NCBI GenBank assembly: GCA_903813345.2
Contig: CAIIXF020000006.1
Span: 8,358,989-8,422,988, forward strand
From: Owenia fusiformis
Taxonomy: Eukaryota > Annelida > Polychaeta > Sabellida > Oweniidae
Length of the DNA stretch: 64,000 nt
Reading direction: 5' to 3'
The notes under the pieces were generated by a model. It was not told where the DNA came from. It worked only from the letters and a program-made list of their open reading frames with translations, and did not search any database. The position numbers and the translations under genes are program-made. How positions within the stretch are numbered: the first letter of the stretch is position 1; each line of letters starts with the position of its first letter. Below are positions 49,301 through 64,000 of this stretch, one piece after another.

Positions 49301-50071
49301 AATCAGTCTATCATTACTCAGCCATTACAGGGATCTAGGATTAAAGACGACTCAGTGACAGAGCTGTATACTATTCAATGAATCCAGAGTATCACATAAC
49401 TAAATTTCTATTTTTTCTACCTGATTGTACCCCAAGAATGAAAATACAGTGTATAGGGGTGACTTGAATGCCTAAAGATGTTTGAGTAAAATTTCTTATC
49501 TAACAATGAATACAGAACAAGATTATTCTTTTCTCACAAGATTCAAATGGTACAACAATGGCTGACAATATAACAGAGTTCAGACAAAGTCAAGATGGGT
49601 GATCAATGGATTGTTTGGTTTACATCTGATCATGGGCATGATCTGATCAAAAGTGTACATCAACTGATGCCACGCAAAAACAAATATGTGTGTGTTGCTC
49701 AAGATGAACCTACAGTACAAGTCCTTGGCTTTGGTTGATGACTACAAAATAAAGTTGAATGCTACAATGAAACCATACATGTTAGATCAAACAACTCTAG
49801 AGGGTTTCACTTTCATGTTATGTTCACAAGTTCATGTTATGTTCACAAGTGGCCAACTGACCAGCATAGATTTCTGTAGATCTAGCAGGTGGTTGGAAAT
49901 GAAGAGTTTGAACAAATAATTTTGTAAGAGAGATCTTGAAAATGCAATGAAACACAAGTAAACACATTATTTGTCAAAATATCATAATTGCATAGTTATA
50001 AATGTTGTAGTTTACCTTATAGCAACGCGAACACTGGTGCCATCGTTCGAATCTCTCGACTCTTCAGCCAT
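1229..50071 (-). CDS. KIF21: KIF21-type kinesin-4 gene, 27 exons, 3' end off window
   Basis: Plus-end-directed microtubule motor of the kinesin-4 family; vertebrate KIF21A/B limit microtubule growth and are tethered at the cortex by KANK proteins (family knowledge). Seen: 27 GT-AG exons in consistent phase, listed individually below, about 1,298 residues. Residues 1-408 form the motor domain with P-loop GQTGSGKT split by an intron, switch I SSRSHA and switch II DLAGSE, plus the neck. Next come a coiled coil, an Asp/Glu-rich tract (exon 13), long coiled coils (exons 14-21) and a Ser/Arg-rich linker (22-27). Human KIF21A is about 1,670 residues with a C-terminal WD40 propeller; that part must lie left of base 1. 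The ATG has a strong context (A at -3, G at +4). Family assignment is near certain; exact splice sites are by eye. Confidence 0.96.
1331..4217. other. KIF21 introns 26 and 25
   Basis: AT-rich intron sequence around exon 26 (2722-2820). A CCCCC(A)n imperfect duplication lies at 2396-2445. No gene or bounded transposon was recognised. Confidence 0.5.
2722..2820 (-). CDS. KIF21: KIF21 exon 26, basic Ser/Arg linker
   Basis: Encodes [20 protein letters not shown] and [12 protein letters not shown]. It is 99 bp, phase 2 on both sides. The [10 protein letters not shown] motif recurs in exon 27. No firm vertebrate counterpart is recalled; the model rests on phase, splice sites and the paired motif. 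Confidence 0.75.
4218..4397 (-). CDS. KIF21: KIF21 exon 25
   Basis: Pro/Ser-rich linker containing [14 protein letters not shown], nearly identical to vertebrate KIF21 IPEPSPVTRRK. 180 bp, entered and left in phase 2, donor GTAAG. Confidence 0.9.
4779..5014 (-). CDS. KIF21: KIF21 exon 24, candidate KANK-binding site
   Basis: Starts [19 protein letters not shown], the counterpart of vertebrate ARRRTTTQMELLYADSSE, the short helix by which KIF21A binds the ankyrin repeats of KANK1 (family knowledge, recalled). The rest is Pro/Ser-rich ([17 protein letters not shown]). 236 bp, phase consistent. Retention of the motif suggests cortical tethering is ancient; that part is inference. Confidence 0.9.
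5196..5286 (-). CDS. KIF21: KIF21 exon 23
   Basis: Encodes [20 protein letters not shown] and [10 protein letters not shown], leading into ARRK of exon 24 as vertebrate KIF21 leads into KARRRTTT. Two in-frame acceptors lie 12 bp apart (after 5286 or after 5274), so the product may differ by four residues. The donor is GTGCGT. Confidence 0.8.
5287..8311. other. KIF21 intron 22
   Basis: AT-rich intron of 3 kb without a recognisable gene or bounded element. Confidence 0.5.
8312..8357 (-). CDS. KIF21: KIF21 exon 22 (46-bp micro-exon)
   Basis: Encodes [14 protein letters not shown], a Ser-rich linker. It was found by phase: it needs one base from exon 21 and leaves two for exon 23, and both borders have GT-AG. 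The acceptor GTTAATTTCAG is good. A transposon copy starts about 18 bp upstream of the acceptor. Vertebrate KIF21 has a Ser/Pro-rich stretch here, but sequence similarity alone would not prove it. Confidence 0.75.
8376..8665 (+). mobile_element. MITE copy A with GATGCAACAACACC motifs
   Basis: Begins CACTGGGGGGTATCG followed by a 29-bp palindrome around TGATGCAACAACAC (8391-8419), and ends in several spaced GATGCAACAACACCA units. A second copy lies inverted at 11735-12026. No coding capacity is seen. It starts roughly 18 bp upstream of the acceptor of KIF21 exon 22. The superfamily is not determined. Confidence 0.75.
9006..9185 (+). repeat. 62-bp tandem repeat, 2-3 diverged copies
   Basis: The unit begins TTAGTACCTCAA and contains GAAATACTCRATTCTGATTG. 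Copies start near 9008 and 9070, with a decayed third near 9128. In KIF21 intron 21. Confidence 0.7.
9448..9614. repeat. Long imperfect hairpin (fold-back MITE)
   Basis: The first and last 17 bases are perfect inverted complements (ACAAATAGTGACTGCCA). The arms continue with short mismatches to a loop near 9530 containing TCGTCC. It contains repeated TCCTGTCCACTGAC sequence on opposite strands. It lies in KIF21 intron 21, so the transcript could fold, but a decayed fold-back transposon is the simplest reading. Confidence 0.75.
9905..10440 (+). repeat. Diverged direct repeat, about 350-bp spacing
   Basis: GGACTAACARAACAATWGTWRACCTCTC-like sequence occurs at about 9918 and 10267, each followed by a TCGGTATACAATTTTGCC block (10050 and 10366). 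Each copy also contains internal complementary stretches (GTCAACAGT / ACTGTTGAC). Non-coding. Confidence 0.65.
10994..11300. mobile_element. hAT5-like MITE with CAGGGGCGGAT ends
   Basis: Imperfect terminal inverted repeats CACTGGCGGAT / CAGGGGCGGAT (read inward) enclose G- and C-homopolymers and GGGCC-rich repeats. A 5-bp target duplication TACAT flanks it (10989-10993, 11301-11305). Open frames inside are low-complexity and not genes. Confidence 0.8.
11735..12026 (-). mobile_element. MITE copy B, inverted relative to copy A
   Basis: Reverse complement of 8376-8665 at high identity, including the GATGCAACAACACC palindrome at 11980-12012 and TTCCGGTGATAGATTTTCGT. The two copies face each other across most of KIF21 intron 21, so the pre-mRNA could pair over 3 kb. 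Confidence 0.75.
12239..12561. repeat. 162-bp tandem duplication covering part of KIF21 exon 21
   Basis: Copy 1 is 12239-12400 and copy 2 is 12401-12561, about 95 percent identical by eye. Copy 2 contains the real exon end and donor. Copy 1 has the same coding stretch (one Leu for Val) and donor but lacks the 5' 44 bp and the acceptor. Confidence 0.92.
12464..12605 (-). CDS. KIF21: KIF21 exon 21, coiled coil; 3' part duplicated downstream
   Basis: Encodes [20 protein letters not shown] and [17 protein letters not shown], ending LLGADQ, matching the vertebrate ITSATQNQLLFHMLKEK...LLGHALQ region. It ends one base into a codon. The last 98 bp, the donor and 60 bp of intron are repeated just downstream at 12239-12400. 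Confidence 0.93.
12936..13154 (-). CDS. KIF21: KIF21 exon 20, regulatory coiled coil
   Basis: Encodes [31 protein letters not shown], then [19 protein letters not shown]. This aligns with the vertebrate ISDCQANIMQMEEAK...EARYLLDHFL region, the autoregulatory coiled coil where human KIF21A eye-movement-disorder variants cluster. 219 bp, phase 0/0. Confidence 0.95.
13310..13384 (-). CDS. KIF21: KIF21 exon 19
   Basis: A 75-bp exon encoding [20 protein letters not shown] and KMGNK, matching vertebrate REELTKRREKLSKRREK. Part of the antiparallel regulatory coiled coil thought to keep the motor autoinhibited. Phase 0/0. Confidence 0.92.
13425..14000. mobile_element. Dispersed repeat with GGACGGACGG tract, family R1 copy 1
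   Basis: Left end AATCCCATCGAAC and right end GTTCGATGGGATAAT form inverted ends. Inside are ACCAAATATGAACAAAATCG, GGCCGCCATTTTT units and a GGACGGACAGACGG microsatellite near 13912-13953. The same family is at 32537-33250. No coding capacity. In KIF21 intron 18. Confidence 0.8.
14591..14659 (-). CDS. KIF21: KIF21 exon 18
   Basis: A 69-bp exon encoding [20 protein letters not shown] and WLK, equivalent to the vertebrate [20 protein letters not shown] segment at the start of the regulatory coiled coil. Phase 0/0. Confidence 0.92.
14838..15014 (-). CDS. KIF21: KIF21 exon 17
   Basis: Encodes a basic segment with [11 protein letters not shown] and [15 protein letters not shown]. The vertebrate counterpart is RPMSDKVAGK...SKTARMKWQLLERR. 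The basic linker sits between coiled coils. 177 bp, phase 0/0. Confidence 0.95.
15284..15460 (-). CDS. KIF21: KIF21 exon 16, coiled coil
   Basis: Encodes [20 protein letters not shown], then [19 protein letters not shown] and VLRRKQEE. It matches the KIF21 segment [13 protein letters not shown]...VLRRKTEE. 177 bp, phase 0/0. Confidence 0.96.
15781..15974 (-). CDS. KIF21: KIF21 exon 15, coiled coil
   Basis: Encodes [37 protein letters not shown] and ELSDMKKLK, a long heptad helix. It is the counterpart of vertebrate KKVRSEYEKKL...KEHARLLKNQSQYEKQL. 194 bp, ends in phase 0. Confidence 0.95.
16171..16365 (-). CDS. KIF21: KIF21 exon 14, coiled coil
   Basis: Encodes [20 protein letters not shown], then [20 protein letters not shown] and [13 protein letters not shown]. 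It is collinear with the vertebrate LANITCEIAIKQKLIDELE region, one of the most conserved KIF21 coiled coils. 195 bp. Confidence 0.95.
16851..17023 (-). CDS. KIF21: KIF21 exon 13, acidic tract
   Basis: Encodes an almost uninterrupted Asp/Glu run ([20 protein letters not shown] and so on) ending [12 protein letters not shown]21 proteins carry the same acidic stretch, probably regulatory or a charged spacer. The DNA is a GATGAT-type low-complexity repeat and may vary in length between alleles. 173 bp, phase consistent. Confidence 0.92.
17085..18135. mobile_element. Dispersed repeat with GGAC microsatellite
   Basis: Left part contains GGACCCACGGTCCTATGCTC, right end a GGACGGACGGACAGACAGAC tract (18060-18105) followed by CATAGGCTCACTGTGTGAGC. 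Internally it has repeated TTTTGACGTCAAA and TGACCTTTC-like steps. This fits a non-autonomous transposon or unclassified repeat in KIF21 intron 12. No frame of interest. Confidence 0.6.
18474..18777 (-). CDS. KIF21: KIF21 exon 12
   Basis: Encodes coiled-coil residues ([19 protein letters not shown]), a Ser/Thr/Pro-rich linker ([14 protein letters not shown]) and a Lys-rich helix ([18 protein letters not shown]). Vertebrate KIF21 has the same order: YIKEIEDLRAKLLESEA followed later by a Lys-rich stretch. 304 bp, entered in phase 1 and left in phase 2. Confidence 0.94.
19015..19080 (-). promoter_or_regulatory. Triple tandem 5' splice sites after KIF21 exon 11
   Basis: A 24-bp unit ending ATTTCAG is repeated three times. 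Donor GT follows the first two (exon ends 19063 and 19039) and GC the third (19015). All leave the exon in phase 1, so each choice adds 8 residues and still joins exon 12. Confidence 0.75.
19063..19255 (-). CDS. KIF21: KIF21 exon 11, first coiled coil; tandem donors
   Basis: Starts [17 protein letters not shown] and continues through a heptad-rich stretch ([17 protein letters not shown]) to ISG. The donor used here is the first of three equally spaced candidates: the exon could extend to 19039 or 19015, each adding 24 bp (8 residues) without changing frame. Coiled coil 1 of KIF21 follows the motor in the same way. Confidence 0.92.
19494..19689 (-). CDS. KIF21: KIF21 exon 10, end of motor and neck
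   Basis: Encodes [20 protein letters not shown], then [20 protein letters not shown] and the start of the neck coiled coil, ending in MEYKT. This completes a motor-plus-neck of 408 residues, the expected size. 196 bp. Confidence 0.97.
19957..20072 (-). CDS. KIF21: KIF21 exon 9, microtubule-binding region
   Basis: Encodes [20 protein letters not shown] and [18 protein letters not shown], the loop 12/alpha 5 microtubule-binding signature of kinesins. It is 116 bp and ends two bases into a codon finished by exon 10. Confidence 0.97.
20442..20609 (-). CDS. KIF21: KIF21 exon 8, switch II
   Basis: An acidic loop ([10 protein letters not shown]) is followed by [20 protein letters not shown], the switch II DxxGSE motif, and the relay helix start [33 protein letters not shown] is essentially identical to vertebrate KIF21, making this the most diagnostic exon. 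168 bp, phase 0/0. Confidence 0.97.
21007..21138 (-). CDS. KIF21: KIF21 exon 7, switch I
   Basis: Encodes [19 protein letters not shown] and then [12 protein letters not shown], the switch I region that senses the gamma phosphate. It is 132 bp, phase 0/0. All catalytic switch I residues are present. Confidence 0.96.
21546..21638 (-). CDS. KIF21: KIF21 exon 6, motor domain
   Basis: A 93-bp exon encoding 31 residues including [17 protein letters not shown], the strand before the switch I helix. Phase 0/0 with clear GT-AG borders. Confidence 0.95.
22047..22103 (-). CDS. KIF21: KIF21 exon 5, motor domain
   Basis: A 57-bp exon encoding [19 protein letters not shown], the conserved kinesin YNE..DLL segment. 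KIF21 proteins share the DTTRD continuation. Phase 0/0. Confidence 0.95.
23703..23885 (-). CDS. KIF21: KIF21 exon 4, P-loop
   Basis: Begins [14 protein letters not shown], completing the nucleotide-binding P-loop, and continues with [15 protein letters not shown] and [13 protein letters not shown]. It is 183 bp, phase 0 at both ends. Vertebrate KIF21 has TGAGKT here; Ser for Ala is common in kinesins. Confidence 0.96.
23886..28581. other. KIF21 intron 3
   Basis: 4.7-kb intron. It contains the TTAA-flanked MITE at 26326-26611. A 25-mer at 24451-24475 recurs inverted at 44765-44789 with two mismatches. No exon or other gene was found. Confidence 0.55.
26326..26611. mobile_element. piggyBac-like MITE with TTAA duplication
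   Basis: Flanked by TTAA at 26322-26325 and 26612-26615. The ends match as inverted repeats: CCTCTTGAATCCCAGG against CCTCTTGACTACCTGG. 286 bp, non-coding. TTAA duplications occur in piggyBac and Kolobok elements; the CCY start favours piggyBac. Confidence 0.82.
28582..28624 (-). CDS. KIF21: KIF21 exon 3, motor domain up to the P-loop
   Basis: A 43-bp micro-exon encoding [14 protein letters not shown], the first half of the kinesin P-loop (FAYGQ-TGSGKT); an intron splits it after GQ. The flanking introns are 2.8 kb and 4.7 kb. Too short to be seen as an open frame, but phase and motif are unambiguous. Confidence 0.95.
28625..31401. other. KIF21 intron 2
   Basis: 2.8-kb AT-rich intron with (AT)n runs near 29491-29505 and a (TA)n(C)n run at 30718-30740. 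No gene found. Confidence 0.5.
31402..31581 (-). CDS. KIF21: KIF21 exon 2, motor domain
   Basis: Encodes [14 protein letters not shown], then [13 protein letters not shown] and [11 protein letters not shown], the first motor strands. TPGEPQV is a KIF21 signature. The acceptor is preceded by a T-run and CAG. The exon ends GG and the codon is completed by exon 3. It is 180 bp in a consistent phase. Confidence 0.95.
31932..32503. mobile_element. 572-bp MITE with TTA duplication
   Basis: Ends read inward CCCTACTATCACACC and CCCCCCTATCACACC, then share AAACTAGTTCT. TTA is duplicated at 31929-31931 and 32504-32506, verified by the uninterrupted target in the neighbouring tandem copies. The interior has repeated TCTGTTTACGAACTTCATG-like segments. 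A 3-bp TTA duplication fits PIF/Harbinger or CACTA-type elements. Confidence 0.88.
32537..33250. mobile_element. Dispersed repeat family R1 copy 2
   Basis: Shares the right half with 13425-14000, including GGACGGACAGACG, then TATATCCCTCCGAACTTCGT and TCGATGGGATAATAACAAT. Internally it carries about 165-bp tandem units with TATGAACAAAATCGCTC and GGCCGCCTACTACC. The left inverted end is missing, so the copy is 5'-truncated. Confidence 0.8.
33922..34449. mobile_element. 528-bp fold-back MITE with 5-bp duplication
   Basis: Almost the whole element is a palindrome, with arms of about 250 bp and a short loop near 34175-34200. Ends CACTGGTAATCCGCTCGATTA / CACTGGTGATCCACTCGATTA differ at two bases. 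AACTG is duplicated at 33917-33921 and 34450-34454. In KIF21 intron 1. Confidence 0.9.
34455..37046. other. KIF21 intron 1, stretch without recognised elements
   Basis: AT-rich. I find no supported gene or bounded repeat here. Confidence 0.45.
37047..37395. repeat. Diverged inverted repeat, arms about 170 bp
   Basis: GGCCTCCTAGACTTTCACAA on the left mirrors GGCCTCCTAACTTCCACTAA read on the other strand from 37395. Further inside, AACCACAGTTYTCACAA and CACATTTCTTCACTCG / CATATTTCTCCACTCG correspond, converging near 37210 (CACACAGCTTTGTGG). Arms are roughly 70 percent identical. Each arm keeps an open frame of about 45 codons reading ..RVxKxVxERGxxGxRLKN..; no family recognised. Confidence 0.65.
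39307..40451. mobile_element. hAT-like element, 1,145 bp, with a nested MITE
   Basis: Inverted ends TAGTGCCTGAACGACAG / TAGTGCCCGAACGACAG. An 8-bp target duplication TATAATAG lies at 39299-39306 and 40452-40459, the hAT signature. The interior has many CGACAG subterminal units. A 371-bp element is inserted at 39324. No transposase frame, so it is non-autonomous. Confidence 0.9.
39324..39694 (+). mobile_element. 371-bp MITE (family P) nested in the hAT-like element
   Basis: Ends TACCCT...AGGGTA with a 9-bp duplication GAACGACAG at 39315-39323 and 39695-39703. It contains CCAAT boxes, TGACGTCA, a GGGCGGGGC box and TATA-like TTTATATGG. A second copy is at 46631-47009. The 9-bp duplication fits Mutator- or Merlin-type elements; superfamily uncertain. 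Confidence 0.88.
40460..42076. other. KIF21 intron 1, unassigned
   Basis: AT-rich intron sequence; no gene or bounded element recognised. Confidence 0.45.
42077..42449 (+). repeat. 17-bp minisatellite, about 22 copies
   Basis: The unit GTTGGTGAGGCAATTGT varies at two positions (GG/GA and TGT/TAT). It is gap-free with almost no length variation. Translation gives a repeated peptide on the minus strand, which is a by-product and not a gene. Confidence 0.95.
43805..44078 (+). repeat. 139-bp tandem duplication
   Basis: 43805-43943 is repeated at 43944-44078 with almost no differences (CGACTGTTTTGTACTTTTTT to CAACCTCAAATGC). The period is not a multiple of three. An open frame crosses it ([20 protein letters not shown]), but no family is recognised and it lies inside intron 1. 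Confidence 0.9.
46631..47009 (-). mobile_element. MITE family P, second copy, inverted
   Basis: Reverse complement of 39324-39694 with about 95 percent identity and a small insertion (CCTTGTACCG). The 9-bp duplication ACAACTTTG is at 46622-46630 and 47010-47018. Confidence 0.9.
47732..47937. mobile_element. hAT5-like MITE with CAGGCCCGTAGCCAGG ends
   Basis: Perfect 16-bp inverted ends CAGGCCCGTAGCCAGG at both sides, with C/G homopolymers and GAACCCCCC units inside. AGAAG is duplicated at 47727-47731 and 47938-47942. 206 bp, non-coding. This end sequence is widespread in animal genomes. Confidence 0.88.
47938..50015. other. KIF21 intron 1, proximal 2 kb
   Basis: AT-rich, no bounded element. 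A short direct duplication TTCATGTTATGTTCACAAGT sits near 49812-49851. Confidence 0.5.
50016..50071 (-). CDS. KIF21: KIF21 exon 1 (start codon)
   Basis: Encodes [18 protein letters not shown] plus two bases of an Arg codon, matching the short N-terminus before the first motor beta strand of KIF21. The donor is GTAAAC. The ATG is at 50069-50071 with A at -3 and G at +4. An 18.4-kb intron follows. The Arg codon is completed by exon 2, giving VRVAIR-IRPQ, the typical kinesin start. Confidence 0.9.
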
Positions 50072-50643
50072 CGTGATTTTTTTTTAAAAATCCACAAATT
50101 TATGGGAGGCAAAATAAATCCAAACTGGTTGCACCCTGTCTCACATAACTTATCCAATATATCGGCCACTACATATTCTCTCTGTAACAACCTTAATTAC
50201 ACTTGGTAATCAACAGATCTTCACTTAATTTGCATTTTATTCATGCAATTTTTAAACCGTGGTTCTAATTTTCTTTTCTGAAGACCCCTTAGAAGAAGAC
50301 ATAAAAGATTGCTGATTTTCTCCAAGTTACTACTGACATCTATACATGAAACAAGAAATAAAACCATGTCAAAATGCGCTTTGGGATCAAAAGCCTGTAG
50401 TATCCTTTTGAGAGAAATGTTCCTAGTTTGTTTCCTTTATATCGATTGGTTGATCAGTGTCCTTATGTTCCTGGCATGGGTGTATAAAAAAATCAATTAA
50501 TAAATTTTGTTGAAAAACATTAACAAAAGTTTCAAATGCACCATGCTTGGCTCGTGGTGATGCAAACTCAAAAATCGCACCCCGACCAGCCCCCCTTGAC
50601 AATTGCTGGAGCTCTACGCCGCTGCTGGTCTGTCTGTCTGCTT

Positions 50644-50823
50644 GGGCCAGACTGCTATAGCCTCCCATGTTAAAAAGGTCACTGCTCAACTCCAACTGTT
50701 CAACAGTCCTCCTAATAGTGTAGTTTCTAAATAGCAGATAAAGCTGATATAGTAGGCCTAATAGATGTCACCCTTGTCATTATTCATTTTGCTCGGGCCA
50801 GACTGCTATAGCCTCCCATGTTA
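50644..50823 (+). repeat. Direct repeat of a 30-bp block, 150 bp apart
   Basis: GGGCCAGACTGCTATAGCCT followed by CCCATGTTA occurs at 50645-50673 and again at 50795-50823. Both lie 570-750 bp upstream of the KIF21 start codon, in the presumed promoter region. Confidence 0.85.
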
Positions 50824-50824
50824 T

Positions 50825-50870
50825 GGTACAATATAGTGACACGATAATATTCGTGTCACTATATTGTACC
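50825..50870. repeat. Perfect 20-bp hairpin
   Basis: Arms GGTACAATATAGTGACACGA and its exact complement around the 6-base loop TAATAT. It sits directly after the second copy of the 30-bp block. Possibly a tiny fold-back insertion, with duplication of the flank not evident. Confidence 0.9.
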
Positions 50871-50959
50871 GGTCATTTTAAAAAGAAATAAAAGAAATAG
50901 TACATTGTGGAGTATGATAATATAGTTGCATTGAATTTGACATTGCACTTATGTTTGGT

Positions 50960-51200
50960 ATTCCATCTAGAATTGTATTCAATGTGGCCCTATTGAGCCC
51001 TATTGTGCAGTCTACATTTTAAGACAAAGTGTTCAAGCGTTTCAATTTTAATTTTTTCATTGCAGCTCTCACAAAACTTCTCAACCTCTCAACTATCTCT
51101 CAACGGTATCCCCTCCCATTCGCCTGTGTTAATTCTTAAGTGGCCTTGTCCGACCATTAAACGTACCATTAAGTTACATCTTTTAATGAATCTCGAATCA
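50960..51200 (-). pseudogene. LINE reverse-transcriptase C-terminal remnant
   Basis: On the minus strand it reads MVGQGHLRINTGEWEGIPLR, one stop, then KFCESCNEKIKIETLEHFVL and KC. This is the C-x2-C...H...C zinc knuckle that follows the reverse transcriptase in many LINE and I/Jockey elements. Only about 70 codons remain, with a stop. Dead fragment. Confidence 0.6.
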
Positions 51201-51209
51201 CTCCTGTAA

Positions 51210-52387
51210 TTATGTTGATATCTTTGCAACATATTTGTTTTAGATCATCTTTAGTATGAGCAAAGGATTTTTCGAACTAAACTGAACTTTTTATCAGTGT
51301 GAATATTATTTTTCTGATGATTCCTGCATCTATGCATTATCTTACTCAGTCATTTCTGATCATTAAGCTTTGATTCTCAGAGTCTGGTATCACATCTAAT
51401 GAAGCATGTAAGCATTCCCTATGACACCACACAATCCACATGATCAATTTTTTTTTTAAATAGTCTTTATTCAGCTTTTGGTTATTTTACATGATCAATT
51501 TATTTTATAGTAAAAGCATTTAACAACATATTCAAGTTAACATTTTAATGTGTTTGGTAATTTATGAGAGTTTATTATGTATGTAAACAGGGTTAATAAA
51601 GCTCATTCTCTCAATTATTTTTGTTTGCCCCGGGTGCCTTGATTTCCGGTTACTATGACAGCCATTACTTATCTAATATTTCTGTTATACCAAATATTTT
51701 TTGATAGATTAATAAAGTATTCTATACTGCAGATTCAATGAGAATATATTGAAAAATAAAAAAATTAGAGAGATATTATGAGAACTTTATGATATACCCT
51801 CGTATATTGTTGAATGTATGATTAGAGTGTGCTTTGAGACATGTTCGATTTTCTAAAAGGAAAAGTTGATTGCTCCAAGGACTTTAAAGATACTGATTTT
51901 GGATGACCAAAATGAACTGAAACCAATGGATAGCATGAGATTTTTCAACGGAGAAATAACATGGGGAACACTTATCTTAAAGCAATTAAGTTTTTCTCTT
52001 TTCAACAATTATCTGATACATCAAAATAGAGAATGGTAAAGCATTAAACATTGTAAAAAATGATTGCATTTTTGGTGAAAATGGGGTCAACATCTAAAAA
52101 AGTGTGTTGAAGGGTTGATTGCTTGTTAAATATCTCCGAGTTTTGTTTGACTTTATTATTACTGTATATAATTTTCTTTGAGATAATGAATTGATCTAAA
52201 CGATAAACCTAAAAACGATAAAAAGGTGCAAATCTCTTAAAATATCATGGAAAACGAGAATTTGTGAGATTTCAAAGCTATATGGAAACTCATCTAATAG
52301 AGAAACTATGTCTCTCTTTACTATACTCTCCCTACGGCCCTGCTGCACTGCACCTATATAGAAAACATTTGTATTCTTAATCCACGG
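51210..52387. other. Intergenic, unassigned
   Basis: AT-rich sequence between the KIF21 5' region and the composite transposon. No supported gene. Confidence 0.4.
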
Positions 52388-52554
52388 TGTCCAACACAAA
52401 CGCTCTTACATGCATGACTGAGCGTTTCATTACTGAATCTAAACCAAGAAACGCTCTGGAGTAGGAAAACTGGCGGGCGCCGGGAAGGATGAGCCGTGTG
52501 ACGATTTCCCTAATAATGGGAATAAAGGTATGAGTTACTTATTTCGAGTATACC

Positions 52555-53860
52555 ATTTAGTCTGGATGTAGAGCCAGTAGAGGTGGAAATGCTTATTATA
52601 TGAACTTTTTTTGCATTTTCCGTTTAAACATGATATCCATATTCAGAAACTGTCGGATGCCCATCGATCATCCTTGAGGATTTTTTTTGGCGGCCATTTT
52701 GAATTTTCACACGTTTTATGTATTTTAGCCAGCATATTAGAACAGAAAACTAGCATACACATAAACATATCTTGCTGTTTTTTCTATAATAGAGTTTTAA
52801 TATGATGTATACCAATATGTTAGGTTCCAGAAATGTTTCTTGACAAAAAAAAAAAAAATTCAAGATGGCCGCCAACCTTACAATTTATGAAATGTCTCAT
52901 TCTGTGATAATATCAAATGGATATTAGTGTTTTCTACAAAATTATCAATAAATAATACTAAATACATCTGATTATGATCTCTTTCTCACATATAAAATAT
53001 CTGAAATGAGTAAAAAGTAACCTACATAATAATAATGATGTTCCACAAGGGTCATTTCTTAGTGCTATATATATCTTGAATTTATGAATTCTCTTCTTTT
53101 ACTAAGATTTCATCAAGGATTTCCCTCAATAAATCCTCATCAGTTTCTTCCAATTCCTGTTCAGTTACTGTCTTTGTATGTTGGTTATTGCATTCATTCC
53201 CCTTGCAAACACAGAACAATGTACATGATAAAGATGCCTTCGAGCATGAACATCGCCCAGTTCTACATACCTTGCCCTCCGATGCACATGTGAACTTAAT
53301 GAGTTTGAGAATTCCTTCAGGGGCACAGGGTGTATCCTTGGGCATTGTTGTTGGGACAAGTGAGCCCGTGCTATTAATTTCCCAACCATAATCTGTTGGA
53401 AGGATAAGTGGGGGTCAGGCATATCAGCATTTTTCCATATAGCTACTTGGAAATGAGCTCGCTTCACATGCTTGGAAAATGCTTCTGTTGTTGGTGGGAG
53501 GGATTTTAGCTTTGGTGCATTTGTAATGTGTTTTGCAGCATTTTATTTGCCCATACAGCATATCTCACATCAGACATTTTGTCTGTGACTTTAGGTGTAA
53601 TTCCATAACATCTAGATACAAATTCTGTTCAAGTTTTCTCAACTTCAGTCATGTCTGCATTGACATCTCCCAAGTTAGTGAGTGAGTATCTATTTAACAC
53701 CTACAGGACTGTTAGCTTGCCAATTCCATGCATGCAAGATGTCGTATCACTGCCATAGAGACCATGCACAGCTAACAAGTTTGGGATTTTTAATTTGTGT
53801 TCATTTACGGTTGCATTAATGTTAATGTTTGCTCTGCCAGATGATGTTCCCTCCATTATC
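52555..53860 (-). pseudogene. Left inverted copy: transposon nuclease C-terminus and CXC domain
   Basis: Reverse-complement copy of 55020-56335. The frame at 53082-53345 encodes the cysteine-rich domain (TCASEGKVCRTGRCSCSKAS ... FCVCKGNECNN) and an acidic tail (EDLLREILDEILVKEENS). Upstream, the nuclease end is frameshifted by a missing base in the AVWANK region near 53560. Nothing upstream of the nuclease middle is present; the copy breaks at 53860. The far end (52555-53080) is 3' untranslated sequence with GGCGGCCATTTTGAA. Confidence 0.85.
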
Positions 53861-54369
53861 ACTATTTGATGAAAATGGAGAAATTAAAATCACAACTTCA
53901 AAATCAACACTGAAACAAAAGTTACAGATTGAGGTGACCTCAAGAGGAAACAATTGCAATGTACGTGTCTTTGATGGGTGGATCATAACATGGCCGATGG
54001 CTGGCAAAATTGAAAACTTCTGTATTTTGTATTCTGTATTTCACTAAGTACATCCTGAGATTCCTAACCGAATCAGATGTATACCTTATCTTTGACAGAT
54101 ATAAAGACAATAGCATAAAGAACAGCACCAGGTCATCTCGAGCTCAATCAGCCAGGAGAGTGTATAAGTTCAGCTCTGACACACCTCTCCCTGCACAGAA
54201 TGTTGTTCTGAATGTGACTGAGAACAAGGTCCAGTTGATAAAGTGTGTCATCGACCATCTCACTCAAAAAGGTAGTGAAGGATCATTATCCAACATCCTT
54301 GTTATCACAGGTCTTGATCCAACACCTGTACAAATTCACAAAGGCAATATTGACCAACGTGATGACTTA
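53861..54369 (+). pseudogene. Transposon gene, segment upstream of the MITE
   Basis: Single-copy centre of the palindrome. One frame reads FDENGEIKITTSKSTLKQKL and IEVTSRGNNCNVRVFDGW; after a frame break near 54020-54045 (a short duplicated TGTATTTTGTATTCTGTATT run) another reads ESDVYLIFDRYKDNSIK, LPAQNVVLNVTENKVQLI and VITGLDPTPVQIHKGNID. DVYLIFDRY and VTENKVQLI are typical of a large family of transposon-derived invertebrate proteins that continue into an XPG-like domain. Interrupted, so not functional as it stands. Confidence 0.75.
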
Positions 54370-54860
54370 CACCCCAGTCACATTTCCTGCGGCCGCCTTG
54401 CGGTCTATCATTTCTGCGGCCAGTTGCTTTTCTACGCTCGCCGCAGAATTTCTGCGCTCTCATACTTTTGCAGTCACATTTCCCACGGCAGCCGCACGGT
54501 GAATTTTAAATTTCTGTTAATAAATAATACTTTTTTTCATTTTATTTACATCAGGACAATTTATAAATGTTATTCATAGTGCTAGGATGTAATTTCAAAT
54601 GAAAAGTGATCGTGAAACATTGACAAATAATGATTCAATCTTGTTGAGCCAGTTGATTTCTACGGGGACCTCAGAAATGAACAAATATTATAACTCCAAG
54701 TTATAATTTCTACGCCTTCCCTGCGGCCTGTAAAAATCTGCATTCGCCGTACGGAGGCCGCAAGGGGAGCGTAGTTTTTCTACGCTCGCCGCAGAAATTC
54801 ACCGATTTAATTGTTCTGCGGTCTACTTGCGGCCGCCGTGCGACAAATGTGACTGGGGTG
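54370..54860. mobile_element. 491-bp MITE inserted in the transposon gene
   Basis: Perfect 16-bp inverted ends CACCCCAGTCACATTT, with TTA duplicated at 54367-54369 and 54861-54863. The interior is unusually GC-rich for the window, with repeated CTGCGGCCGC, TTGCGGTC and CTACGCTCGCCGCAG. No gene. The 3-bp TTA duplication fits PIF/Harbinger or CACTA-type elements. Confidence 0.93.
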
Positions 54861-55802
54861 TTAAGGAACACTCAAGAAGAAGCAGATGTTGTTATCGTAC
54901 ACCAGGTTCTGCATGCTGCCAGTAAAGGCCAAAAGAATATCAGTGTACTCAGTGATGATACTGATGTTTTCCTTCTACTTCTTCATCACAGTCTCAAGCA
55001 CAAGTTAATGGAAAATAACATCATAATGGAGGGAACATCACCTGGCCAAGCAAACATTTACATAAATGCAACCGTAAATGAACACAAATTAAAAATCCCA
55101 AACTTGTTAGCTGCGCATTGTCTCTCTGGCAGTGATACGACATCTTGCATGCATGGAATTGGCAAGCTAACAGTCCTGAAGGTGTTAAATAGATACTCAC
55201 TCACTAACTTGGGAGAGGTCAATGCAGACATGACTGAAGTTGAGAAAACTTCAACAGAATTTGTTTCTAGATGTTATGGAATTACACCTAAAGTCACAGA
55301 CAAAATTTATGATGTGAGATATGCTGTATGAGCAAAGCAAAATGCTGCAAAACACATTACAAATGCACCAAAGCTAAAATCCCTCCCACCAACAACAGAA
55401 GCATTTTTCCAGCATGTGAAGCGAGCTCATTTCCAAGTAGCTATATGGAAAAATGCTGATATGCCTGACCCCCCACTTATCCTTCCAACAGATTATGGTT
55501 GGGAAATAAACAGGACAGGCTTATTTGTCCCAACAACAATGCCCAAGGATACACCATGTGCCCCTGAAGGGATTCTCCAGCTCATTAAGTGCACATGTGC
55601 ATCAGAGGGCAATGTATGTAGAACTGGGCAATGTTCATGCTCCAAGGCATCTTTATCATGTAGATTGTTCTGTGTTTGCAAGGGGAATGAATGCAATAAC
55701 CAACATACAAAGACAGTAACTGAACACGAATTGGAAGAAAGTGATGAGGATTTATTGAGGGAAATCCTTGATGAAATCTTAGTAAAAGAAGAGAATTCAT
55801 AA
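54861..55802 (+). pseudogene. Transposon XPG/FEN1-like nuclease plus CXC domain (right copy)
   Basis: Continues exactly in frame from the segment left of the MITE: RNTQEEADVVIVHQVLHAAS, then SVLSDDTDVFLLLLHH (acidic nuclease motif) and HCLSGSDTTSCMHGIGKLTV, which resembles the GxGIGxxTA helix-hairpin of FEN1/XPG nucleases. A single TGA at 55329-55331 ends the frame after DVRYAV; the same frame continues beyond it as AKQNAAKHITNAP and KRAHFQVAIWKNADMPDPP to the Cys-rich domain (CRTGQCSCSKASLSCRLFC) and the end at 55802. The left copy has Trp where this one stops. Confidence 0.82.
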
Positions 55803-56335
55803 ATTCAAGATATATATATAGCACCAAGAAATGACCCTTGTGGAACATCATTATTATTATGTAGGTTACTTTTTACTCATTTCAGATATTTTATATGTGA
55901 GAAAGAGATCATAATCAAATGTATTTAGTATTATTTATTGATAATTTTGTAGGAAACACTAATATCCATTTGATATTATCACAGAATGAGACATTTCATA
56001 AATTGTAAGGTTGGTGGCCATCTTGAATTTTTTTTATTTTTGTCAAGAAACATTTCTGGAACCTAACATATTGGTATACATCATATTAAAACTATATTAT
56101 AGAAAAACAGCAATATTTGTGTATGTGTATGCTAGTTTTCTGTTCTAATATACTGGCTAAAATACATAAAACGTGTGGAAATTCAAAATGGCCGCCAAAA
56201 AAAATCCTCAAGGGTGCCCGTTGGGCATCCGACAGTTTCTGAATATGGATATTATGTTTAAACAGAAAATGCAAAAAAAGTTCATAAGCATTTCCACCTT
56301 CACTTAAAATATGGCACTTCACATCCGGACTAATT
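55803..56335 (+). other. 3' region of the right transposon copy
   Basis: Non-coding, mirrored by 52555-53080. Contains GGTTGGTGGCCATCTTGAA and GGCCGCCAAAAAAAATCCTC. Homology with the left copy fades after about 56335. Confidence 0.8.
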
Positions 56336-56791
56336 CGATGGGTGTGATATTCATGTTGTACTTGGCTGGGTGTTGACGTTTGATGCTTTACGAAGCAATA
56401 TAGTTCAATAATTCATCAAAATTCAAAAACGTATTTGTCATTCTACTGGTCAAAACCCCCTTTGTCGAGACATGTGATTAGTTGAGCGAAATTTAGAGCA
56501 CCAACGTATATTTTGGTCAATTTGCAATGCTCCAACACACAATACATTATCATAATTGTGATTTGATGACTGAAAATCCAGTCTTCGAAATGATGACATT
56601 CTCATATTCAAGAAACGCTGCGATCTGCTCAACACAGTGAACTGGAAACGCCTCGGTAGTCTAGATCTGTTTAGGAAATATATGGCTTTACTTTCCTTTT
56701 CAGGAAGAGAAAGATCTATTATACCCCTTGGCATCTAAAGAAGAAAGATTAATTCACATATAATTTTTTTGTTTTTTTTGACAATAGTTTT

Positions 56792-58714
56792 ATGTTTTAT
56801 CACAAATGTAGGCATAAAGCTCTTACATTACTTAATTTTGGCGGGACACTAATTAAATGGGTAAAAACCTTTTACAAAAATGCTCAAACATGTATAACAA
56901 ATAATGGGTATCAATCAACTATGTTTTCACCATCCAGGGGAGTCCGTCAAGGATGCCCCCTATCGGCATACCTTTTCATAATCGTAGCGGAAATATTAGC
57001 CATATCTATTAGACAAAATAACGAAATTGGAGGCATTCTCTTAAATAATACCGAAGTAAAAATTTCAATGTTTGCTGATGATACAACTTTTTTCATGAAC
57101 TCCATAGCATCAACCGAAAGAGCCCTTCAGATTTTAAGAACCTTTTCAGAAATTTCTGGCCTTAAGCCCAACCTTCAAAAAACAGAAGGTAGATGGTTAG
57201 GACAATTTAAAACAAATCCTCCACAAATTGTACCCAAAAGTCTTGTATCGGAAATTAAAATTAACAATGAATCTTTCTACACACTCGGAGTGTGGTTTAG
57301 CAATAATATAGATGATTTTTCCCCTAAAATCAAAGCTATAGAAAACTTATTTAAAATATGGGAATGGAGGAATCTTAGCCTAATAGGGAAAAATGTGCTC
57401 ATTAAAGCTCTAGCCATTTCAAAATTTACTTACTTAGCATCAATAATACTTTTACCAAAGCACATCATCAATAAAGTTCAAAACATCATTAACAATTTTC
57501 TGTGGAACAAAAAACCTCCACTTATCAGTAATTTAACAACTATAGGCAAAATAGAAAAAGGTGGGATCAAAAGTTTACATTTTGAGTCGCAAATAAAAGC
57601 ATTACAAATTCAATGGGTAAAAAGGTTATTCCAAAGCAAACCTTGCAAATGGAAACAATATTTTTACAGTTTCTTTCCAAATCTACAGCCTGAGGCAATC
57701 TTTCAATCTAAATTTCCAGTAGAAACCTTGGCTAGATTACCACCTTTTTACTTCAGTATTATGGAAACATGGAGATCTTTACATAATAAAGAGCCATATA
57801 ATAAGGAACTCGCCTTAAATGAGTATATTTGGAACAATGATTTTATAAAAATTAATAATCGAACAGTGAGTTATGCTAATTGGATAAACAAGGGTATTCT
57901 TCAAATTAAAGACCTTGTTAACAACAACGAATTCCTGGGATTTAACGAATTTTCTCTTAAATACAACATTAATGCACCCTTCGTTACCTTTTATGGCTTA
58001 ATCCACGCAATACCACATACATGGAAACAATTAATTAGAAATAATCCAAATAATAAGAAACTTAAAAATGAAGAACTTCAAATTAAAGACCGCACAATCA
58101 ACGTCAATGCTATTAAAACTAAAACTATCTATTGGTATCTCATAGAGGATCTATTCAAGGGACCAACTGGTAAGAAATTCCTAACTACAAAATTTAATGT
58201 CTCAGAAGAGGAATGGAAACACATTTTCACTTTGCCTTTTAAGACTGTACGTGAACCAAGAATACAATGTTTTCAATACAAACTCATTTTAAATCTAACG
58301 CCAAACAATAACTTTTTAACTCAAAAGAAGATCAAAAATTCAAATTTGTGCGATATATGCAATAATGACAAAATCGATGATACCATACATTTTTATATTG
58401 AGTGCCCAAACTTTGCCAAGATTTGGGACGAATTCAAAATTTTCTTCAATGTTGATTTAACAAATAAAGATATTATTATAGGAAAATTAGATGAAGAAAA
58501 CGAGGATAAAACTAAAGCCATAAATTTTTGTATCTTGTATACAAAAAGTCTAATACATAAATCTAGACTGATTAAAACTAAAATCACCTTTATCCAAATA
58601 AAGGAAATCATAAAATATAAAATCAAGGATGAAAAAAACATCGCAAATTTAAATAATATGCAAGAAACCTTCAATAAGACTAGGAGATGGGTTATTGAAC
58701 TATTAAGCCAATAA
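56792..58714 (+). CDS. LINE ORF2 C-terminal part: reverse transcriptase and zinc knuckle
   Basis: A 640-codon open frame. The first eight or nine codons come from the target-site flank, and LINE sequence begins at about KALTLLNFGG. Reverse-transcriptase motifs: RGVRQGCPLSAYLF (about residues 49-62) and SMFADDTTFF with the catalytic DD pair (about 90-100). Then come the Tx1/L1-typical thumb region (NVLIKALAISKFTYLASII, NNFLWNKKPPLI) and a C-terminal C-x2-C...H...C knuckle (LCDICNNDKIDDTIHFYIEC). The N-terminal endonuclease and start of the reverse transcriptase are missing, so the copy cannot be autonomous. No stop or frameshift within the remnant. Confidence 0.93.
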   Translation: MFYHKCRHKALTLLNFGGTLIKWVKTFYKNAQTCITNNGYQSTMFSPSRGVRQGCPLSAYLFIIVAEILAISIRQNNEIGGILLNNTEVKISMFADDTTFFMNSIASTERALQILRTFSEISGLKPNLQKTEGRWLGQFKTNPPQIVPKSLVSEIKINNESFYTLGVWFSNNIDDFSPKIKAIENLFKIWEWRNLSLIGKNVLIKALAISKFTYLASIILLPKHIINKVQNIINNFLWNKKPPLISNLTTIGKIEKGGIKSLHFESQIKALQIQWVKRLFQSKPCKWKQYFYSFFPNLQPEAIFQSKFPVETLARLPPFYFSIMETWRSLHNKEPYNKELALNEYIWNNDFIKINNRTVSYANWINKGILQIKDLVNNNEFLGFNEFSLKYNINAPFVTFYGLIHAIPHTWKQLIRNNPNNKKLKNEELQIKDRTINVNAIKTKTIYWYLIEDLFKGPTGKKFLTTKFNVSEEEWKHIFTLPFKTVREPRIQCFQYKLILNLTPNNNFLTQKKIKNSNLCDICNNDKIDDTIHFYIECPNFAKIWDEFKIFFNVDLTNKDIIIGKLDEENEDKTKAINFCILYTKSLIHKSRLIKTKITFIQIKEIIKYKIKDEKNIANLNNMQETFNKTRRWVIELLSQ

Positions 58715-59124
58715 CTCCGTATTATATAGGTATGGAGTATATATTATAAAACTGTGGTAACCTATATATTATGTTATTAAAGACTATTGTGCAATTGTGA
58801 TGTAAACATTTGTAAATTATATTGTTTGGAAATTCTCTGTACACGTGGAGATGAGCTGTTGAAAATAGTATCTATTTGTAAAAGGTAAAATAATTATATC
58901 ATATATTTAAGGTATGGAGTATATATTATAAAACCATAGTAACCCATATGTTCTTGAAGACTATTGTGCTATTGTGATGTAACCATTTGTAAATATTATA
59001 TTATTTGGAAATCCTCTGTACATGGAGATGAGCTGTTCAAAATAGTATCTATTGTAAAATGTTAAATATTTATATGAACATGTATGTATATCATGTATGA
59101 TGTATGTGTAAGATCCAATAAAAA
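56818..59124 (+). mobile_element. 5'-truncated Tx1/L1-like LINE with 14-bp target duplication
   Basis: Flanked by AAATGTAGGCATAA at 56804-56817 and 59125-59138. The 3' end is AATAAAAA. It starts inside the reverse-transcriptase domain, the usual 5' truncation from incomplete reverse transcription. The 3' untranslated part has a 182-bp tandem duplication. Age is young: the frame is intact and the target duplication perfect. Confidence 0.93.
58729..59075 (+). repeat. 182-bp tandem duplication in the LINE 3' region
   Basis: GGTATGGAGTATATATTATA starts at 58729 and 58911. The copies differ by about 10 percent, more than a recent slip would show, so the duplication is probably a family feature. 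Confidence 0.85.
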
Positions 59125-59513
59125 AAATGTAGGCATAACTTCATCTAATGTAGGCTTTAAGTCGGCTAGAGCCGGCTAGTTGCACGTGTAGCACCAGCAG
59201 GTGACTAACAAGTACAACACGTTTTTGAGAGATAGATTCGATTCCGAACTCTTCTCTAATAATCTGAAAATAATATCAAAACAAAATGGTAAAAGCGTTT
59301 CTAAAATTGTGTCCTAAATCGACGGAGCGTTTCGAGGAAAACAAGCGATTTCTCAAGAACAAGTAATGGATTTGGACTGGGATTTTAGGAAATGAGAATA
59401 TACGACTTTGTGATTTACTACTTTGACTGAAAGATTGACGTTTTCATATAAATATTAGTTTAATTCATAATTTGTGGTCAATTCGTCAACTTCAGATTCG
59501 TTCGATCTACACT

Positions 59514-60163
59514 ACGGAGCTTTGGTCAAGCAATTAACAGTTTACCACCAGAAGTTGAATAAATTAATCTTTGCTCAGGGTATTGTTCATCGAATGGTAC
59601 ATAATATGTCACCATAACGTATGATATAAAAGAGAAACGGGTGAAACAATACTTACAGTCATCTTACAGAACTCCATTAGCCGCCATTTTATTTCGCTTC
59701 GCAGCGTTTCCGCGTAAATAAAACGCTCTTTCGTACATGTAAGAGCGTTTTGGTTGGACACATCCTTGCTGCAAGGGTATATTACAAGTATATAGGCATA
59801 GGAATTGAGGCATAAATGAAGTCCTTTGAAGAAGGATGGTTGGACACCGTTTAATCGCTCAAACGAATATTTATAAAAGTAAGTTGTCAATAAAACCTCC
59901 CATTAACACTATATAGTCTACGAGTGAGTCCGAATAATCATATCGAAATATGGACATCAACATAGTATTTGTATTAATTTCATATAGCCAAATTCAAATA
60001 ACCATCTGCTTCATGTGGAAAGACAATAACAAACAACTTGCCAGCAGGCTATTGAGACAATATTAATCAGTAGTGATTTTAAATGTATATAGGATCAACT
60101 ACAAAACATATGCCATATATTCTTATCAGACTCGTGTAACAAAACATACTGTAAGGACTGAAC
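59514..60163. other. Right edge of the composite and MFS upstream region
   Basis: Holds the AAACGCT/GAGCGTTT units and the outer inverted sequence (59739-59763), then 395 bp of AT-rich sequence before the transporter start. No distinct promoter element was identified. Confidence 0.5.
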
Positions 60164-61579
60164 ATGCAAAGATATATTTCCTTGTTTGTGGGAATATTGT
60201 GCACCTTTTTAGCAGGAGTCTTGTATTGTTTCAATACATATGCAATCGCATTGAAAGCTACATTCAACTACACACAAATGGATCTGGAGCATATCTTTAT
60301 TAGTGCGGACGTTGGTCAAAATATTTGCCTCCCCGCCGGATTTATATTTGATAAATTTGGACCTAGAATTGTCAGTTTCTTTGGCCTGATTTTTACTGGA
60401 TCTGGATTTACACTACTATGGATTACTACAAAGTTTGAAACATTTTTCGCAACTAATGTATGGTTGAGTTGTATTATATATTTATTTACACTATTTGGAA
60501 CAACATTTTCTTTTGTTGCAGCTATAAGTGTAAACTCAAGGAATTTTGAAAAGAAATATAGAGGTGTAATACTAGGGATTCTCTCCGCAGTATTTGGGGT
60601 AGCTGCAACAATATACAGCGCCATCTATCAAGGTTTCTTTGTACAAGGCCACATAGAAGATGCCGAGAATCAGAAATATGGTGATTTTATGCTGTTCCTA
60701 GCCGTCCTGTCTGTGATCATTAATTTGTTAGCGATAGGCCTGCTTAAGGAAATTCCAGTTGATAAAATATCTGATACAAATGAAAGTAATGAATTGAACG
60801 ATCTCTTCAAAACATGCGAAGAAAACAAAGTTACTGATAACGAAATGAATGCAGTGGAAAGTAGAAATGAGAAAAATACATTGATTCCAAATGACACCAT
60901 TCCATGTCCACCAAATTTGGATGCCTGGCAAATCATAAAAACGATGCAATTTTATTACCTTTTCACGATAACTTGTGTTTTAGGGGGATCTTGTGCTACG
61001 TATGTTAACAATATTTCGACTGTCTTGAAATCCATTAATAGAGAGAATGACATTGTAGTTTTTACAATCAGCCTTCCAATTTTCAATTTAATAGGAAAAT
61101 TAAGCAGTTCTTGGTTCTTCAATTATATTTGTCTGAAATGGCCTAACATTCCAAGATCATTGAGTCTTTTACATTGTTCAATTTCAACGTTTATCGGTCT
61201 ACTTGTTATGATTTTCTTCTACCATGAATTTGCTGGCTTGTTCATCAGCACGATTATGATAAGCTTTGCGTTTGGGTCATTTTATGTACAAATACAATGG
61301 GTCTTCATGGAATTATTTGGTGTAAAGTACATTGGACAAATCCTTGGCCTCGTATTTCTGGCTCATAGTCTTGGGATGTTTGGACTCCAAGAATTGTTTG
61401 GCTTTAGTTACGAATTGAATAGCCCGGTAGGAAATGAGTGTTATGGTGAATCTTGCTCAAAGGGACTGTTTGTTTTGCTTGCAATTGTATGCTTTTGTGC
61501 ATTGTTTCTTAATGTTTGTTTGATTAAAATTGAAAGAGATGACATTCTGAAGCGCAAAGAAAACCTTAATGATAGATAG
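60164..61579 (+). CDS. Intronless MFS transporter, nodulin-like/NFD4 type
   Basis: Multi-pass membrane protein of 471 residues with about 11-12 hydrophobic segments. N-terminal helix LFVGILCTFLAGVLYCFNTY; the loop 2-3 motif GFIFDKFGPRIVSFFG is the MFS signature (G-x3-D-x2-G-x-R). A hydrophilic acidic loop spans about residues 198-255 (SDTNESNELNDLFKTC...), followed by the second bundle (YYLFTITCVLGGSCATYVNN). The VLYCFNTYAIALK start and GxYxNN-type second half resemble plant nodulin-like/NFD4 proteins and their little-studied animal relatives. Substrate unknown. The start ATG precedes the first helix directly. Lack of introns contrasts with KIF21 and could mean a retrocopy or a naturally intronless family. 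Flanked on both sides by transposons. Confidence 0.85.
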   Translation: MQRYISLFVGILCTFLAGVLYCFNTYAIALKATFNYTQMDLEHIFISADVGQNICLPAGFIFDKFGPRIVSFFGLIFTGSGFTLLWITTKFETFFATNVWLSCIIYLFTLFGTTFSFVAAISVNSRNFEKKYRGVILGILSAVFGVAATIYSAIYQGFFVQGHIEDAENQKYGDFMLFLAVLSVIINLLAIGLLKEIPVDKISDTNESNELNDLFKTCEENKVTDNEMNAVESRNEKNTLIPNDTIPCPPNLDAWQIIKTMQFYYLFTITCVLGGSCATYVNNISTVLKSINRENDIVVFTISLPIFNLIGKLSSSWFFNYICLKWPNIPRSLSLLHCSISTFIGLLVMIFFYHEFAGLFISTIMISFAFGSFYVQIQWVFMELFGVKYIGQILGLVFLAHSLGMFGLQELFGFSYELNSPVGNECYGESCSKGLFVLLAIVCFCALFLNVCLIKIERDDILKRKENLNDR

Positions 61580-61595
61580 TTTCACACGGTAACAG

Positions 61596-62464
61596 GACAA
61601 GACAACTCATCCTAAGACAACTCATCCATAAGACATCTCATCCCAGGACAACTCATCGCTAGATATCTCATTCCGAGACATCTCAAATAATTTCAAATTT
61701 TGGGAAAATATTTGAAAAATATTTAGAGATTTTTTGCAGTTAGCACACTGTGTTTGGCCATGGAATATCTTTATTTATCATATACATTTTCATGCTGTAT
61801 TTCAAACTGACACATTTTACATTTTGTCATGCTGTATTTACTTAATATTTTTGTATTTTGTAATTTTTGTAGTTAGTTTAGTCAAGTTTTAGTTAATTTT
61901 CGTTGATTGATTAGGATAAAGATAAACATGTTCAAAATATCTAATACTTTGATTATTAAAGCAACGATCATCAAAGGTATCAGATTAGTATTAACTCTAT
62001 AAGAATGTATATTATTCGGGGTAATATCAGAATAATTCTCCCAGATTAATTCAGTCTTTGTTTTAAAATATTTTGATTATTTCCAATAAGTCACACTTGG
62101 CTTAATCCTAAATAGGATTTTCATTTCAAACTAACAGATTTATGATGATTAAATTTGGAAATTCTGTCTGTCTATGACTTTCATTCTCAATTCTATATTC
62201 TCAAGTATATTGAGAATAACCTAGAATTAATCAAAATGCTAAAAATCAATATTAAAAATTGAGTGTATAATACATTATCACTTTGTAATCGAAAAATTAT
62301 TAAAAAAAAGGGATATACATTGTATAATACAGAGATTAATAATCTATCAATTATACAAGTGGGATCAGTTGTCTTGGGATGAGATGTCTTGGGATGAGTT
62401 GTCTTGGGATGAGATGTCTTAGGGATGACTTGTCTTGGGATGAGTTGTCTTGGGATGAGTTTTC
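61596..62464. mobile_element. Non-autonomous element with inverted GACAACTCATCC arrays
   Basis: The left array (61596-61687) has six degenerate GACAACTCATCCYAA units, alternating with GACATCTCAT. The right array (62365-62464) has the inverse (TTGGGATGAGTTGTC) in about seven units. Between them lie about 680 bp of AT-rich non-coding sequence. It starts 16 bp after the transporter stop codon, so it probably forms part of that gene's 3' untranslated region. Confidence 0.8.
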
Positions 62465-62544
62465 TAGAAACCTTTCACACTGCCTGCCTCATTTGACTAA
62501 GCTTGACAAAAGCTAGACCGATTTACAGATTTTTAAATCTGCCA

Positions 62545-63200: not shown

Positions 63201-63587
63201 AGATATTGTGCCTTGTTATTGTTGTTTATTATATCATATTGACATATCGAATATCATTTGTACATAACAATAGTGTACATCAGTAATTTCGGTATATTTG
63301 TATTATTTGGTCAAATTAGGTATTACCATATGGGTGATACATCTCATACCTATATCTGCGATATTCAACTTATGAGATGTTTAAAATCAAAATCAAAATG
63401 TAATATAATGTAAAAATATGTATCTTATTGTATCTATACTTTGAGTAGGTATTTCCGAATTATTTGACATTTAATTTGTATTATAGTATAACATGTGGCG
63501 TAGCCAGCAATTGGTGGCCAGGGATTCGATTGTTATCGTACCTAACAAGAGGTACGATATTGTAGTCAGCTTGACGGGCGGCGGGCG
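63201..63587. other. Intergenic, unassigned
   Basis: AT-rich, with GGCGTAGCCAGC at 63497 resembling a transposon end, but no partner was found. A GGGCGGCGGGCGG stretch directly precedes the repeat copy at 63588. Confidence 0.4.
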
Positions 63588-64000
63588 GACAATAGTTTTA
63601 TGTTTTATCACAAATGTAGGCATAACTTCATCTAATGTAGGCTTTAAGTCGGCTAGAGCCGGCTAGTTGCACGTGTAGCACCAGCAGGTGACTAAAAAGT
63701 ACAACACGTTTTTGAGAGATAGATTCGATTCCGAACTCTTCTCTAATAATCTGAAAATAATATCAAAACAAAATGGTAAAAGCGTTTCTAAAATTGTGTC
63801 CTAAATCGACGGAGCGTTTCGAGGAAAACAAGCGATTTCTCGAGAACAAGTAATGGATTTGGACTGGGATTTTAGGAACTGAGAATATACGACTTTGTGA
63901 TTTACTACTTTGACTGAAAGATTGACGTTTTCATGTAAATATTAGTTTAATTCATAATTTGTGGTCAATTCGTCAACTTCAGATTCGTTCGATCTACACT
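63588..64000. repeat. Second copy of the host repeat, LINE-free
   Basis: Continuous version of 56780-56817 plus 59139-59513. The LINE target AAATGTAGGCATAA occurs once here (63612-63625). The copy runs off the right edge. Confidence 0.93.

Follow-up and report, generated by a model that had tools for sequence, protein, structure and literature searches.

The DNA analyzed here, a 64-kb stretch of the Owenia fusiformis genome that we refer to as the window, contains a long palindrome lying within a nest of other mobile elements (Table 1). When the window was compared with itself by BLASTN, a single long inverted match of this kind was obtained, in which 55023-56299 aligned with 53859-52581 at 95.1% identity over 1283 columns, and the homology of the two arms extended raggedly outward as far as 52558 (left) and 56332 (right). 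The initial annotation had placed the arms at 52555-53860 and 55020-56335, which the alignment confirms to within a few bases. The palindrome thus has long inverted arms (1.3 kb) facing outward around a unique center, as is characteristic of foldback-like elements, and neither BLASTN nor TBLASTN detected a second copy of this center in the window.

Both arms stop at a common terminus, the TIR TAGTCYGGATGT, at 52558 and 56332, and ATT is repeated directly outside it on either side, although a 3-bp direct repeat is expected by chance once in 64 per register tried and is weak as evidence. Beyond the ATT pair, no similarity was seen between the flanks. Since the arms end at a shared terminus, with ATT outside and dissimilar flanks, we conclude that the palindromic element measures 3775 bp (MITE included), that it terminates at 52558 and 56332, and that it is nested in an outer repeat. 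These results support the earlier description of a transposon-derived palindrome with a fold-back layout, i.e., long inverted ends, and with both ends resembling transposon termini.

Table 1. Coordinates of the palindromic element and of the repeats around it, numbered from the first base of the window
Feature	Position	Strand	Remarks
Left inverted end of outer repeat	52387..52431	+	GTGTCCAAC + AAACGCTC...GAGCGTTT hairpin; inverted match to 59717-59761
ATT, left copy of 3-bp direct repeat	52555..52557	.	Candidate target site duplication of nested element
Left arm	52558..53859	-	Inverted copy of element 3' end (gene 3' part, 3' region, TIR TAGTCTGGATGT)
Unique center	53860..55022	+	1.16 kb; upstream coding sequence of right-arm gene, MITE-interrupted
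Gene remains	53877..55802	+	Candidate FEN/XPG-like nuclease part and cysteine-rich C-terminus; start approximate
MITE	54370..54860	.	491 bp; TIR CACCCCAGTCACATTT (16 bp, perfect)
Right arm	55023..56332	+	Gene 3' part, 3' region, TIR (GACTA at end)
ATT, right copy of 3-bp direct repeat	56333..56335	.	Candidate target site duplication
LINE, 5'-truncated	56818..59124	+	2.3 kb; inserted in outer repeat
Right inverted end of outer repeat	59717..59761	-	
Second terminal-like motif	59839..59850	-	GTTGGACACCGT, exact inverse of 52384-52395
Second copy of outer repeat, partial	63588..64000	+	Without LINE; runs off window

The Outer Repeat and Its LINE Insertion

The outer repeat is delimited by an inverted pair of 45 nt (52387-52431 and 59717-59761) with 84% identity, whose local score of 55 exceeded all those obtained by two-base block shuffling of the left stretch (500 shuffles, maximum 37). 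The hairpin motif of these ends occurs twice in the window, in the left outer end and at 59721. Twelve AAACGCT/AGCGTTT sites are present in the 64 kb: nine fall in the outer repeat (both ends and 56336-56779), two in its second copy, and one at 51036, while the nested element and the LINE contain none. This distribution indicates that the two outer ends are parts of one repeat. We also considered 52387 and 59761 as the palindrome's own ends and rejected them, since they belong to this different, outer repeat. Inverse sequences had initially been taken to bound the whole palindromic structure. They do form a genuine inverted repeat, but they are not the boundary of the palindrome, as they are separated from its arms by 171 bp (left) and ~3.4 kb (right), the latter containing the LINE.

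The LINE itself carries a reverse transcriptase domain (Pfam RVT_1, E 1e-14) and a zf-RVT match of 26.1 bits, just under the cut-off of 27.5. It is flanked by a 14-bp target duplication, AAATGTAGGCATAA, at 56804-56817 and 59125-59138, and the corresponding empty site is found in the second copy of the outer repeat, where AAATGTAGGCATAA occurs once, at 63612-63625. Together, the reverse transcriptase, the target site duplication, and the empty site identify an insertion by a LINE. Its 3' region includes a 177-bp tandem repeat in 1.9 copies (58728-59075).

The two copies of the outer repeat differ at 4 of 413 aligned bases (1.0%; 99% identical). The left boundary of the second copy, GACAATAG, is common to 56780, and to the left of that point the copies differ; the second copy thus starts, in terms of the first, 447 bp beyond the right end of the palindrome. 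At the right-hand side of the nest, the second terminal-like motif is followed by TTAATC at 59851-59856, a hexamer also present at 52377-52382, which is suggestive, but only suggestive, of the outer repeat having its true end and target duplication at 59839-59856. Within 59762-59850, the second GGTTGGACAC terminal motif stands 86 bp past the first, with ATCCTT and AAGGAT, mutually inverse, between the two, and this segment is possibly a duplicated transposon end.

Directly to the right of the nest, 60164-61579 is an uninterrupted 471-aa open reading frame for an MFS/Nodulin-like transporter (Pfam). Elsewhere in the window, a self-inverse stretch of ~530 bp with 83% identity (33922-34449) represents another fold-back-like element; shorter self-inverse stretches lie at 9448-9614, 9929-10096, and 14191-14350, and a tandem array with a short period of ~17 bp, judged by the spacing of self-matches, occupies 42075-42449. 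A search of 50000-64000 against Rfam at gathering scores returned no match.

Gene Remains in the Center and Right Arm

The MITE in the center is bordered by TTA on both sides (54367-54369 and 54861-54863). When the MITE was removed and one TTA kept, a stop-free frame of 254 residues was restored at 54073-55328, so the center and the right arm are parts of one gene. Three lesions interrupt that gene, namely a frame change in the center, the MITE, and an in-frame TGA (55329-55331) in the right arm, while its copy in the left arm carries two in-frame stops and two single-base indels. The palindromic element no longer encodes a working protein; it could be moved only by a transposase acting in trans, having presumably lost movement of its own.

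The gene piece displays acidic motifs in the order FD, EEAD, DDTD, and GSD...GIG, which we take to be the order of FEN/XPG nucleases. In a directed test with a profile of four archaeal FEN-1 sequences, it gave a weak match of 8.0 bits over the GSD/GIG region, a score reached by none of 5000 shuffles (best shuffle 7.5) and compared with -2.3 for the reversed sequence. The same region was selected by hhalign, but its score there was matched by 35 of 100 shuffles and also by the reversed query. Searches of Pfam and NCBIfam yielded no relevant match to the gene remains, the sole Pfam row (VESA1_N, E 5.3) being a chance hit, and PDB sequence searches returned one weak row (E 0.17 and 0.35) that is not a FEN/XPG chain. 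A single-sequence AlphaFold2 prediction for the gene product reached a pLDDT of 34.5, with every residue below 50. The C-terminus contains many CxC pairs; the name CXC refers to this pattern, and Pfam reported no CXC domain there. A FEN/XPG nuclease is thus a plausible, not a proven, reading of this gene.

We also searched for relatives in three sequence collections. Against viral_contigs, 11 stretches matched the pattern of the nuclease piece and four that of the cysteine-rich piece, with no confirmed relative in either case; against genome_contigs, the gene gave 20 pattern matches and again no confirmed relative, and against phages it gave no match. DNA patterns taken from the outer repeat and from the arms had no match in viral_contigs, nor did one from the outer ends in genome_contigs. 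Since none of these collections consists of animal genomes, such absences say little.

The 5' part of the gene, which would include an Academ DDE transposase, is absent from the element. The parts of PMC10045372 that describe AcademX present it as a nuclease lineage with target duplications of 3 or 4 bp, a length with which the ATT duplication agrees, although 3 bp often matches by chance. Taking motif order, the weak profile score, and duplication length together, the element was probably a nuclease-bearing TIR transposon of the Academ (AcademX) kind. Because its transposase half is missing and the collections searched held no confirmed relative, we do not assign it as a member of AcademX.

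Divergence of the Two Arms

To describe how the arms have diverged, we counted substitutions, which occupy 53 of 1273 aligned sites (4.2%), 36 of 778 in the coding part and 17 of 495 in the 3' non-coding part. After merging of adjacent columns, the 55 difference events were evenly spread (variance/mean 0.92, P 0.50), and the longest clean run between the arms, 93, was unexceptional (P 0.63). In the coding part, pS was 0.059 and pN 0.043, with no significant difference between synonymous and non-synonymous sites (Fisher P 0.41). The corresponding omega was 0.73; a fixed omega of 1 fitted worse by 0.35 log units, compared with 3.2 for omega 0.3 and 6.9 for omega 0.2. The simplest account of these numbers is that the arms began alike and that drift followed once the gene was no longer functional.

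It had been proposed initially that ~95% identity between the arms is a sign either of recency or of gene conversion. With differences evenly spread and no clear coding constraint, the arms favor neither proposal: gene conversion was rejected, as the differences are unclustered and form no conversion patches, and 95% identity was rejected as being by itself a mark of recent origin. Since the arms drifted without clear constraint, both recent gene conversion and a junction between two active copies that had evolved separately are disfavored.

The latter idea, that two transposon copies were joined head to head, was also part of the initial annotation; the joining could have come about by ectopic recombination or by alternative (reversed-ends) transposition. 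It is compatible with the geometry of the palindrome taken alone, and ectopic recombination between copies is named for Galileo (PMC4168063). Copies that had once been active should, however, differ mainly at synonymous sites; here, no purifying selection is seen between the arms (omega 0.73, with omega 0.2 being the 6.9 log units worse noted above), and gene sequence extends beyond the arm on one side only. We accordingly regard a head-to-head joining as improbable.

The outermost 29-39 nt of the arms are more divergent than the remainder (4 of 29 substitutions vs. 53 of 1273, P ~0.03), in a ragged alignment and in a contrast noticed after the fact. With two indels added, Fisher's test gave 0.003, the indel count elsewhere being approximate. 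This is as if the left end had kept a remnant of an original left TIR, in which case excess terminal divergence would be expected.

Compared with the 1.0% between the copies of the outer repeat (4 of 413), the arm divergence of 4.2% is significantly higher (Fisher 0.0009, computed with 412), so it is too simple to suppose that the palindrome formed at its present site after the outer repeat arose. Three histories would fit: movement of the whole palindrome into this site, late duplication giving rise to the second outer copy, or travel of the palindrome within the outer repeat. The window cannot choose among these three, because the second outer copy corresponds to the first only from 447 bp right of the palindrome onward.

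Origin of the Palindrome

We consider it probable that the palindrome derives from one AcademX-like TIR transposon in which template switching during gap repair put an inverted copy of the 3' end in place of the 5' part. This transposon, located in the outer repeat or having moved into it, would have lost its 5' part together with the transposase region, the 1.3-kb inverted copy filling that position. The likely route is an abortive gap repair after excision or breakage. Synthesis from the left end would begin at the left TIR, change inside the similar TIR sequence to the template's right end, and proceed ~1.27 kb inward; end joining at 53859/53860 would then connect it with the strand that had been copied from the other side. 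The product would be a fold-back-like derivative carrying right-end sequence at either end, which then drifted neutrally; it now holds the MITE, and the adjoining outer repeat has acquired the LINE. In support of this route, the arms end at matching TIR-like termini with ATT repeated outside. Only one side is duplicated, given that the center and the right arm are one gene, and arms near-identical at formation, followed by unconstrained drift, fit the evenly spread differences. Template switching at microhomology during the gap filling of TIR transposons has been reported in animals (PMC8277862), and template switching in transposon gap repair is likewise described for P-superfamily elements (PMC4168063).

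Alternatively, the palindrome may have formed elsewhere and been transposed into the outer repeat as a mobile fold-back unit, via its two right-type ends and perhaps with sister copies in the genome. The same TIR at both ends and the flanking ATT would suit such a unit, and the arms look older than the split of the outer copies, so that the palindrome may have existed before it reached its present site. This order can, however, also be accounted for by a late-duplicate second outer copy or by a palindrome traveling inside the outer repeat, and no second copy of the palindrome was found within the 64-kb window. We thus view a mobile unit as unlikely, though worth bearing in mind. Less likely again is a whole fold-back class of nuclease-bearing Academ-like transposons, with two 3' ends and coding-containing arms of 1.3 kb, moved in trans as units and older than the outer repeat.

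Palindromes can also come from unsplit long reads or from haplotype mis-joins. A chimera produced by the assembly or by a read is nonetheless very improbable here, since the arms are 4.2% apart and carry indels, the termini are transposon-like with a direct repeat, and the center is unique over 1.16 kb between differing flanks, whereas fold-back of a read would give near-identical arms and a symmetric center. A history in which two 5'-truncated copies inserted independently, close together and oppositely oriented, would account for the geometry and for nothing else. 5' truncation is unusual for cut-and-paste elements, a single ATT pair flanks the whole, and at the central junction the arm runs directly into coding sequence with no flanking DNA between; we give this explanation the least credence of all.

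Together, these results describe an element of a known kind, rearranged into a fold-back-like derivative, and in that sense an ordinary transposon wreck. If the gap-repair reading holds, the locus preserves a legible trace of a strand switch from one end of a transposon to its other end. Such a switch could convert TIR elements into fold-back elements, in this case probably within the Academ superfamily. Otherwise, the four nested mobile elements are routine and serve mainly as a warning that a locus can be bounded by inverted repeats foreign to its contents.

Comparison with Known Systems

Among eight papers in which at least two of the terms Academ, foldback, and mollusc occur, none combines Academ with foldback (in that spelling). 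Literature searches found nothing on a TSO1-like CXC together with XPG and transposon, and nothing on Academ with XPG, transposase, and DNA transposon. Among known systems, the element resembles AcademX in having a nuclease-like gene, as judged by motif order, in a TIR element with a 3-bp direct repeat; it differs in lacking the transposase region. Amplification of Academ has been described in bivalves (PMC10294476).

Galileo and other Foldback-like elements of the P superfamily in Drosophila likewise have long inverted ends of variable length made by rearrangement, and in some Galileo copies non-TIR sequence has been taken into the TIRs, as in the arms of our palindrome (PMC4168063 for both points on Galileo). 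In contrast to Galileo, the long arm here includes 3' coding sequence of the gene, the superfamily is probably another, and a single copy is known. Pack-TIR and other gap-filling derivatives in animals share with the proposed origin the template switching during gap filling of TIR elements (PMC8277862), but the filler in the palindrome is the element's own other end, inverted, and not host sequence.
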